From Protula sp. h YS-2021 (lineage: Eukaryota > Annelida > Polychaeta > Sabellida > Serpulidae): 64,000 nt of DNA. This document shows, one piece after another, positions 47,801-62,666 of this stretch. Position numbers and translations under genes: made by a program. Positions within the stretch are counted from its first letter, which is position 1. The number at the start of each line of letters is the position of its first letter. The stretch lies in contig OX457025.1 in NCBI GenBank assembly GCA_949752745.1, forward strand, positions 97,033,804-97,097,803, in the 5' to 3' direction. Below the pieces are notes generated by a model that saw nothing but the letters and a program-made list of their open reading frames with translations, was not told the DNA's origin and did no database searches.

Positions 47801-50800
47801 GATTGTCGAGAAGTACGGAAGAATTTAAGCAGATCAGAGGAGTATATTTTGGTGTGGTTTGAGAAGTGTGTACAGTAGCGTAATGTCTTCGCTTCTTATT
47901 CAGTTTGACCTGACCGGATGTCTGTAGAGTGTGATTTCGATTATAGGGTAAATAAACACATTCGTTGTTTTCATGACCGAGCGATAAGACCGGAATGTTT
48001 CAATGTTTTTACCTATATTTTGCCAATACAGTAAATAAGTGGAAATGAGTTGTTTTTAAATAACCGACAAACGATGTCTGAAATGAAATATGCAAATATA
48101 ATCCACAGATGAAATCGTTTAATCGCATAAAAAGCACGCTTAATTGATATATGAATTGTAGCTTTTATGTATAAATATAAATAAATGGTCGGCTTTTCCG
48201 GAATAGACCACCGATACTTAAAATGTCACAGAAATCAACAATGCTTCGTTTTTCTGATACAGGTACCAAAAGTGAAAATCACTCGAACAACGTAAACTCT
48301 TTTCTTTTGTCGAAAGCAAAATAAAAATATTGAAAATTGGATTTACATTTGACTGTTTATTAAGATGTCGGTAGTTCCGTATTGTATAACCTAGCGAAAT
48401 TAAAAAAAATAAATGCTTATTTGTATTTTCAATTTTTTCATTTTTTTTTATTTATAAGCAAGAAAATAAGTTGTGTACAGTGTCTGTTACATGAATGATA
48501 ACATAATGAAAAAGTTTCGATTTCTGTGACATTCGTTTTATCGGTAGTCTATTCCGGAATAGCCTACCAGAAAAAATCTGGTTTCTTATTTGCTTCAGAA
48601 TTCTTATTTTAAATAATGCGATATATAAATATATATATATATATTTGGTTGTATGCCAAGATATGTTTATTAAGGCATATCTTGCATCAATTTATTAAAA
48701 TGCTTTATTGTGATTGGTCGATATGTTGACTATGTTTCTGTGTTGACCAGAACGGAAATGTCAATAGATATTACAGTTGTTTAGTTGTGGGGTGGTTCAG
48801 TTATCCGGCTGTTTACTTGTAGGGTGGTTCAGTTATCCGGCTGTTTACTTGTAGGGTGGTTCAGTTATCCGGCTGTTTCACAAGGAACTTGAGGCTTATT
48901 TAGTCGCCGAGGGTCTTTTTGACGATGAAATCACAGAAGACGGTAGGAATTTTTGAGACTACACCAATATGCTTGTACACCTTTCAAAGCATTGGTTGCA
49001 GAAACATAAAATGCAAGAAAATATAGGAGTTAGTTAATCGCATTGCGTGAAAGTATGAACCAGATAAGTGGGTGTTTTGAATCAGCTTATAAAAATAGTT
49101 TATCGGAATGTTCAGTTGCTGGACGCGATTTTCTGGACCAATGTTCTCTGACGTCGCACGATGTTAAGACGGAGTAATTTGTTTGAAGCGACAAGGTGTA
49201 AAAAAAAAAACAGGTTTGATTTGGAAGAATTCGTCGTGAAATTTCACATTTTGTTGTCATCGAAATCGCAGAAAATAGAGCTCATTTGATCGCTGTTAAT
49301 GCGCGTTTGTATTCTCATTTGCAGTGCATTTACGTATCCGACTGGTTGACCAGTTAATACCCAAGTCGCTGTATCCGTCGACGTCAGGAAACACGTACTG
49401 GCAGATCGAGGCGGAGGCCAGCGTCCTGAACGGTAGGTCCTGAACGGTGGGTTCTGAACGGTATATCTTGAACGGTAGGTCCTGAACGGTGGATCTTGAA
49501 CGGTAGGTCTTGGACGGTGGGCCCTGAACGGTAGATTCTGAACGGTGGGTCCTGAACGGTAGGTCCAGAACGGTGGGCCCTGAGCGTTGAGTCCTGAACG
49601 GTAGGTCCTGAGCGGTAGGTCCTGAACGGCAGATCTTGAACGTTGGGTCCTGAACGGTTGGTCCTGAACGGTGGGTCCTGAACGGTAGGTCCTGAACGGT
49701 AGATTCTGAACGGTAGGTCCTGAATGGTGGGTCCTGGGCGGTGGGCCCTGAACGGTAGGTTCTGAACGGTAGGTCCTGAACGGTGGGTCTTGAACGGTAT
49801 ATCCTGAACGGTAGGTCCTGAACGGTAGATCCTGAACGGTACGTCCTGAACGGTAGATTCTGAACGGTAGGTCCTGAATGGTGGGTCCTGGGCGGTGGGC
49901 CCTGAACGGTAGGTTCTGAACGGTAGGTCCTGAACGGTAGGCCCTGAACGGTACGTCCTGAACGGTAATTCCTGATCTGATTGTCACCGAAAACATTGTC
50001 AAGTCTCATGTGAGGTGAAAAACCAACGCACAGGCGTGTGTGTACGCCCTTCATATTAAAATTGTATGCATGACTATTTGCCATGGCAAGTCCCGGTAAG
50101 ATGTCTGACAGAATTGTCGAATGGAAGTTTTCTTGGCTAGCTGTTGACAAAATCATAAGCATAATGGGGTGTAGTCGGGTTTCCGCTCCCCCTTCCTCCC
50201 CCCTCCCCCCGCCCCCACCTCCCACCCAACCCACTTTGATAATATCCGTTTGGAAGCCCTGTTTTACTTGCCGCTACAGGTGAGATTATAAGATGGGAGC
50301 AGCAGGTGCGCTTTCGTCACATGACCACGCGCCAGTACCTGTGTATTACCGCGGACAGGCGCGTCACACTCACGCCAGACTGCAGGGATCCGCGCACCGT
50401 TTTCAGGCTACATCCGGTTATCAAGGTAGTCCGCCATGTTTGTTTAATTTATATTAATTTTCATTATAATTTCTTTTAACGTAATTTTTTTTTAATTTAA
50501 ACACTTTATTTCTTTATCTCTTCTTTAAGACAGTGAAATGTTGTCACGTGATTTCATTTTATAAAGCGTAAACAATATTCAATTCTATTTTTTTTGAACG
50601 GTTCAGATATTTTGTGAAAAATACACTAAATTAAAGTCTCCGACAGAGAACACTGAATGGGATTTAGGCAGGCTGCCACACCTGGTAAAATAACCAACTT
50701 GGTTTGGGTTTTCTTGTGGAGCTATCAGCTGAGTCAGTTGATGCTGATTATTTGCAAGTCTTAAATTAAATTGTTTTCTTTGGTCTGAAAAAAAAACGAG

Positions 50801-62666: not shown

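Follow-up and report, generated by a model that had tools for sequence, protein, structure and literature searches.

Minisatellites straddling splice junctions are in excess in an IP3 receptor gene of the annelid Protula

A 64,000-nucleotide stretch of the serpulid annelid Protula sp. h YS-2021 (assembly GCA_949752745.1, contig OX457025.1, positions 97,033,804 to 97,097,803 of the forward strand; hereafter, the window) carries the first exons of an IP3 receptor (ITPR) gene in which minisatellites repeatedly overlie exon-intron junctions. Over the whole gene, which runs on beyond the window, a junction is spanned by 25 of 52 tandem arrays (17 at donors, 8 at acceptors), against 4.4 expected from uniform placement (P = 2e-14) and 7.3 from placement matched for GC content (P = 3e-10). 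Junction-spanning arrays are about 3 to 6 times above neutral placement in this gene, and about 20% of its junctions (25/128) bear one. By their sequence anatomy, the arrays are of a known kind, the boundary-spanning minisatellites of amphioxus called “mirages”. The original prediction for this DNA had pointed to that resemblance and had judged chance placement implausible; the anatomy does match, and chance is excluded within the ITPR gene by four null models (uniform, GC-matched, rotation, and local jitter) as well as by a stricter exon list.

Arrays were counted at a Tandem Repeats Finder (TRF) score of at least 100 and excluded when more than 88% of their sequence consisted of two bases; in the null, each was represented by one unit-length seed, placed randomly except wholly within an exon or over two junctions. 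In the window, 8 of 12 arrays span a junction, compared with 1.14 expected under uniform placement (P = 1.3e-6) and 1.9 under GC-matched placement (P = 4e-5), P values that apply to a region chosen for its striking look. Lower TRF cut-offs give 8 spanning arrays of 18 (score of at least 50) or of 25 (at least 40). The unbiased replicate is the downstream part of the gene, outside the view on which the original prediction was based, where 17 of 40 arrays span a junction versus 3.2 expected (P = 1.8e-9; GC-matched, 5.3, P = 9e-7) and versus 2.8 with the strict exon list. Rotating all arrays of the gene gave 4.4 spanning arrays on average and never more than 13 in 5000 trials; local jitter, by which each array was moved 200 to 1000 nt, gave 7.5, with a maximum of 16 in 3000. 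A per-position copy test had placed junctions under intron controls (25/128 against 38 expected), and this test was dropped because it scored every base of an array as a control hit; one seed per array was used instead.

The PDB matches of the host gene are to ITPR and ryanodine receptors, MIR and RIH Pfam domains are present in the protein, and the closest-matching ITPR relatives are annelid, nemertean, and molluscan. In a maximum-likelihood tree of 29 rows (the window protein and 28 of 155 proteins), it groups with Capitella, Helobdella, Lamellibrachia, and Paralvinella with support of 99/99, which speaks for an annelid and against an amphioxus source. A COX1 sequence from the last contig of the assembly, presumed to be mitochondrial, has its best named matches in Ficopomatus (67%) and Hydroides (65%), two genera of Serpulidae; the remaining named matches among those listed are at 58 to 61%, with one at 48%, and the animal is on this evidence probably a serpulid. 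The window model comprises 24 exons from an ATG at 32788 to 62666, with GT-AG at all 24 donors and 804 amino acids without a stop; 16 of these exons, joined from 48855 to 62666, form a single open frame of 564 amino acids, and the upstream exons were located by aligning relatives back onto the window. The 18-nt microexon that forms exon 12 (51940-51957) was located by eye and keeps the frame. Where 21 visible donors had been counted before, there are 24, exon 1 and the microexon among their exons. For the rest of the gene, the next 120 kb were fetched and mapped with a purpose-made spliced aligner based on protein alignment. Applied to the window, this aligner recovered 22 exons, of which 19 match the hand model at both ends and 3 at one, and missed the microexon, a check of consistency rather than an independent one, as both models were built on the same relatives. 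The whole gene has 65 exons and 128 junctions. Six donors and four acceptors of the downstream model are uncertain and were kept in the main count (the strict list holds 36 exons), and exon duplicates near 85.1, 87.2, 87.5, and 112.7 kb were left out of the exon count. A 401-bp probe of the gene has one matching place in the assembly.

The gene also appears to hold serial copies of some exons. Four tandem stretches of one fetched locus (L004, at about 347-451, 1097-1222, 3225-3341, and 3504-3599) match the same 30 to 40 residues of relative ITPRs and, judging from these matches, look like alternative copies of one exon, perhaps mutually exclusive; a second such pair lies at about 8720-8833 of L006 and 122-280 of L007. 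An exon of 15 to 16 codons likewise occurs in two copies, at 62622-62666 in the window and at 2859-2906 of L002 (VKKLPRLDNWIAQDG and its neighbor), and the Capitella ITPR has two serial copies of this exon as well.

The features of the window are collected in Table 1. By TRF bounds, each of the seven donor arrays includes 10 to 57 nt of exon sequence. A donor array starts within the exon, so the genuine end of the exon is its first copy, and those that follow are intronic; in the acceptor array, the real junction lies in the last copy. Unit sequences are private to each junction, as had been noted, and TRF matches among copies are 80 to 97%, with indels in some copies. The seven donor arrays had been assigned to exons then numbered 9, 11, 13, 15, 18, 19, and 20 (10, 13, 15, 17, 20, 21, and 22 here), with units of 14, 66, 80, 55, 76-82, 32, and 32 bp; these placements and lengths hold. 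Equally real are the acceptor-side array at the former exon 8 (exon 9 here) and the partial acceptor-side copy at the former exon 21 (exon 23 here). Most units of the exon-20 array end with a pyrimidine-rich stretch and AG, which an alignment resolves as CACAG in 5 of 6 copies and CATGG in one.

Table 1. Mapped gene, junction-spanning arrays, and other arrays of the window (positions are those of the window)
Feature	Coordinates	Strand	Details
ITPR gene, exons 1-24 of about 65 mapped	32788..62666	+	GT-AG exons, open frame, Pfam, PDB; runs on about 70 kb past exon 24
Intronic-only array, 111 bp x 2.8, control	42404..42713	+	TRF
Acceptor-spanning array, 32 bp x 3.2	48778..48878	+	Exon 9 acceptor at 48855; exon is the last copy
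Donor-spanning array, 14 bp x 39.5	49423..49975	+	Exon 10 donor after 49432; GT in 36/40 copies, one truncated
Intronic-only array, 33 bp x 9.5, control	53580..53894	+	TRF
Intronic-only array, 41 bp x 2, control	55230..55310	+	TRF
Donor-spanning array, 66 bp x about 4.8	55497..55815	+	Exon 13 donor after 55553; GT in 3/4 junction copies including the original
Donor-spanning array, 80 bp x 14.8	56612..57795	+	Exon 15 donor after 56644; GT in 15/15 copies
Donor-spanning array, 55 bp x 4.1	58515..58742	+	Exon 17 donor after 58550; GT in 3/4 copies
Intronic array, 17 bp x 3.9, non-spanning	59274..59340	+	Begins 14 nt past exon 18 donor; score 86, under the cut-off of 100
Donor-spanning array, 76-82 bp x 6	60163..60658	+	Exon 20 donor after 60202; GT in 6/6 copies
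Donor-spanning duplication, 32 bp x 2.2	60972..61041	+	Exon 21 donor after 60990; GT in 2/2 copies
Intronic-only array, 169 bp x 2, control	61163..61494	+	TRF
Donor-spanning array, 32 bp x 11.8, over almost the whole of intron 22	61740..62117	+	Exon 22 donor after 61764; GT in 10/12 copies, one truncated
Partial copy of exon 23 interior (62198-62230)	62118..62150	+	28/33 identical; upstream of exon 23 acceptor at 62166

Junctions are spread evenly over the length of the units (Kolmogorov-Smirnov P = 0.69 pooled, P = 0.60 for donors), which means that the splice site does not fix where a unit starts or stops. Nor do unit lengths follow the reading frame, multiples of 3 making up 7 of the 25, as by chance. 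A repair- or transcription-linked origin, raised in the original prediction, is possible and is the one preferred here, whereas its specific form, in which R-loops terminate precisely at the donor, is not favored because unit ends fall at arbitrary distances from the junction. The donor-side bias also proposed then is not significant gene-wide (17 donor versus 8 acceptor arrays, binomial P = 0.11), and a donor-only process is ruled out by the 7 acceptor arrays in the downstream part. Non-spanning arrays are not concentrated near junctions: 3 lie within 100 nt of donors and 2 within 100 nt of acceptors, each against 2.4, and the sole hint of proximity comes from acceptors, which have 2 non-spanning arrays at 20 nt or less where 0.46 are expected (P = 0.08). 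As non-overlapping arrays are not clearly enriched within 20 to 100 nt, the excess is one of junction-including duplications and not of array-rich neighborhoods.

Array-bearing donors differ from the others in both consensus strength (6.99 versus 5.54, P = 0.0004) and local GC content (0.55 versus 0.45 in 60 nt). In a joint model of 18 array-bearing and 41 other donors (n = 59), donor strength contributes with a likelihood-ratio P of 0.006 and GC independently with P = 0.0007; the 6 uncertain donors are not in this model, and donor 72913 is treated as array-bearing even though its array, which contains copies of the junction, does not overlap it. The 25 spanning arrays are GC-richer than the 27 non-spanning ones (0.52 versus 0.44, P = 0.011), and they have more copies (median 6.5 versus 4.3) and a somewhat higher copy identity (87% versus 84%, P = 0.10). 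Two of the 27 contain copies of a junction close by. Small spanning arrays also occur, 7 of the 25 having fewer than 4 copies. Retention of splice signals was examined in the ITPR gene and a paralogue together. GT survives in 0.92 of donor copies, compared with 0.87 when other dinucleotides of these arrays are scored (P = 0.15), with just 10 of 21 donor arrays evaluable; AG in acceptor copies is kept at 0.75 versus a background of 0.87, in 3 evaluable acceptor arrays of 10, one of them above background. The other 18 arrays, including large 14-bp and 31-bp arrays, failed the conditions for evaluation (fewer than 4 copies found, unit too short, or junction near the array edge). An earlier count of GT (177 of 188 kept, against 137 expected) was set aside, as ungapped windows match best at their center and bias the count. 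In this small test, there was no sign of selection keeping the copies usable, and the suggestion that duplications persist for their usable donors found no backing.

Beyond this gene, the overlap test that the original prediction had proposed for the genome was run in part, with a weakly positive outcome in the ITPR paralogue and a negative one in a blind sample of myosin genes. In the 32 kb tested of the paralogue, which lies on another chromosome-sized contig and was found by homology, 6 of 26 arrays span a junction compared with 2.0 expected (P = 0.012; GC-matched, 2.5, P = 0.03); of its 27 predicted exons, the count excludes 9 weak and 2 very short ones (11 in all), together with the array at 4430-5786 lying on two of these 11. 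The myosin sample, consisting of the best 30 of 87 myosin-motor matches, was chosen blind to arrays and offers 97 unique homology-defined junctions in 13 position bins; two loci on contig C74 were left out as a second copy of the loci at 7.27 Mb of C11. No excess was found in this sample, 1 of 34 arrays spanning a junction where scaling of the ITPR rate gives about 3 expected by chance, and inspection adds 3 spanning arrays (4/34 in total) on exons that the homology search had missed. A myosin gene on C11 has, over 10 kb, arrays across four donors and one acceptor, and another on C3 has arrays across two donors; both genes were extended after arrays had been noticed there and so show existence, not rate. 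Two chaperonin-family loci (L053 and L054) have one array at a score of at least 80, known by coordinates only. The excess is established for the ITPR gene and likely for its paralogue; across the genome it is uneven.

A separate observation on the myosin loci concerns their copies. The C74 loci are 99.3 to 99.8% identical over 2.0 to 2.8 kb to those at C11:7.27 Mb (L036/L037 and L041/L042) and are perhaps the other haplotype of that place; in one C74/C11 pair, the alignment ends near the start of a satellite-like array.

The reading that we favor, with a probability of roughly 0.55, is that these arrays are mirages whose origin is linked to the junctions and does not depend on selection acting on the copies. 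A short tandem duplication would straddle a splice site and then expand into a minisatellite growing into the intron; the authentic site lying outermost (the first donor, or the last acceptor) would stay, and the copies would be removed as intron, leaving the mRNA unharmed. Anything inserted between a first donor and the acceptor that follows becomes part of the intron, so a duplication across a junction would not alter the mRNA, and an intact frame that uses the outermost sites only suggests an mRNA unchanged despite the arrays. The excess would arise at birth, with the junction raising the odds of tandem duplication of the surrounding 14 to 154 bp, and the copies would afterwards evolve without visible constraint. 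Tolerance alone is insufficient to account for the excess, because the non-spanning arrays (27/52) are equally tolerated. Base composition explains part of the excess, and the remainder needs either more births at junctions or a longer life of exon-anchored arrays; we favor births over persistence because small arrays (7/25) also sit on junctions and because donor strength counts beyond GC. From this we infer a mutational trigger linked to the junction, most likely one tied to transcription or splicing where junctions are GC-rich and their donors strong. A broader proposal, to which we hold only tentatively and with the odds against it, is that in some genes, from lancelets to annelids, splice junctions are themselves prone to duplication through a transcription or splicing process (e.g., U1 binding strongly, or polymerase pausing, where donors are GC-rich and strong), which would make splicing a source of targeted mutation.

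Several results pull against a junction-linked origin or limit it. GC matching takes away part of the excess, and the myosin sample, chosen without regard to arrays, lacks one. The missing gradient of non-spanning arrays around junctions is unlike what a loosely placed fragile region predicts. The link to donor strength is post hoc and comes from one gene, and selection for a strong first donor beside its decoys could also yield it. Finally, with fewer than half of the donor arrays evaluable, the retention test leaves room for weak selection.

The main rival supposes that births are uniform and that exon-anchored arrays last longer, the selected exon copy re-seeding or homogenizing its neighbors. 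Spanning arrays would then be expected to have more and more similar copies, as they do, yet the difference in identity is not significant, copies of the 80-bp array, compared by eye, are no less variable in their exon part than in their intron part, and the spanning arrays with fewer than 4 copies mean that not all are large survivors. We regard this as unlikely, though with enough in its favor to be taken seriously. That composition alone is responsible is less probable still. Minisatellites would form in GC-rich complex DNA, of which exon ends beside AT-rich introns are the natural supply, and the higher GC of array-bearing donors and of spanning arrays fits, as does the rise of the expectation from 4.4 to 7.3 on GC matching; the 25 arrays observed nonetheless lie far above 7.3, and donor strength is informative beyond GC.

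We give very little credence to selection for extra splice sites (for example, for redundancy in splicing) or to tolerance restricted to copies with a usable donor. Most copies in several arrays do retain GT, but not detectably above other dinucleotides of the same arrays, AG is on average below background, and more than half of the arrays contain no junction and are tolerated as well. Equally hard to credit, or slightly more so, is that the arrays made the introns, through tandem duplication of coding sequence with a proto-splice site. The units at exon 20 (82 bp) and exon 15 (80 bp) hold a donor and an AG and, by eye, resemble mini exon-intron units; against this stand the privacy of unit sequences to each junction and an ITPR gene model of Lamellibrachia with insertions placed, by eye, at or a few residues from introns 1, 15, and 18 of the window gene, which suggests that the introns predate the arrays. 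In that model (P0007 of Lamellibrachia satsuma), the insertions are repeat-encoded peptides, probably intronic arrays read as exons; as evidence for mirages in Lamellibrachia they were rejected, no exon copies being seen in them. An assembly artefact is scarcely credible: tandem arrays are error-prone in assemblies, but the copies differ from one another, some with indels, an assembler has no reason to err at splice sites, and the 863-Mb assembly has 218 contigs, including one of 109 Mb.

Other repeats of the region lie outside this argument. Units of 169 to 177 bp with consensus sequences that look similar by eye occur at 61163-61494 of the window and at distant places (L004, 1434-2230; L009, 1177-2115; L019, 6094-6591) and may represent a dispersed satellite. 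Upstream of the ITPR gene, large arrays occupy 2210-4561, 5390-6510, 12646-13740, 15103-15621, and 16344-16906, and two large 30-bp arrays about 0.9 kb apart (7928-8766 and 9664-11058) have consensus units that look reverse-complementary by eye, as in an inverted minisatellite pair. A six-frame Pfam scan of 1 to 29.9 kb revealed no gene, just three low-complexity matches below cut-offs, and an Rfam search gave no match.

The comparison with known systems draws on the accessible portions of the cited papers. Amphioxus mirages are described there in globins and Adh, the latter as cited from Canestro and colleagues 2002 (PMC3087553), and in PGBD5 and troponin C (PMC3902484); reportedly they seem not to disturb splicing and may seed new introns (PMC3087553, PMC3902484). 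The annelid arrays resemble them in that the unit holds exon and intron across the splice site (25 arrays in the whole gene, 8 of them in the window), that both 5' and 3' boundaries are hit, that many but not all copies keep AG/GT, and that unit sizes vary (from gene to gene in amphioxus) while the coding sequence is intact. They differ in phylum, in affecting 25 of 128 junctions of one gene rather than the one or a few per gene described in the amphioxus passages, and in that the excess over chance was measured. In human genes within segmental duplications, minisatellites at an exon-intron boundary can change gene structure (PMC2812944), lengthening exons or introns or forming novel introns in young paralogues, whereas the annelid repeats appear to be spliced out with the mRNA unchanged. 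An earthworm metallothionein gene, also annelid, has fourth-exon duplications that are missing from the final transcript (PMC12783039); the ITPR arrays span splice sites and recur at many junctions, points on which the consulted passages of that report are silent. In the intron-gain models of Rogers and of Gao and Lynch (as cited in PMC3087553), proto-splice sites are duplicated in tandem; the annelid arrays share with them a tandem duplication carrying splice signals, but here existing introns appear to acquire arrays. Outside lancelets, in literature judged mostly by title or abstract and including few subscription journals, no recognized junction-spanning arrays were found besides those of PMC2812944 and possibly PMC12783039, nor any report of comparable density or statistical excess; what this case adds is the phylum, the density, and a measurement of the excess over chance. 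The passages on amphioxus treat boundary-spanning minisatellites as a lancelet phenomenon (PMC3087553, PMC3902484). Now that roughly one junction in five of a single annelid gene is seen to bear such an array, far more than by chance, the idea of junctions as hotspots of tandem duplication becomes testable, which bears on the birth of minisatellites, on the tolerance of a gene for dozens of decoy donors, and on the possible rise of new introns and exons.

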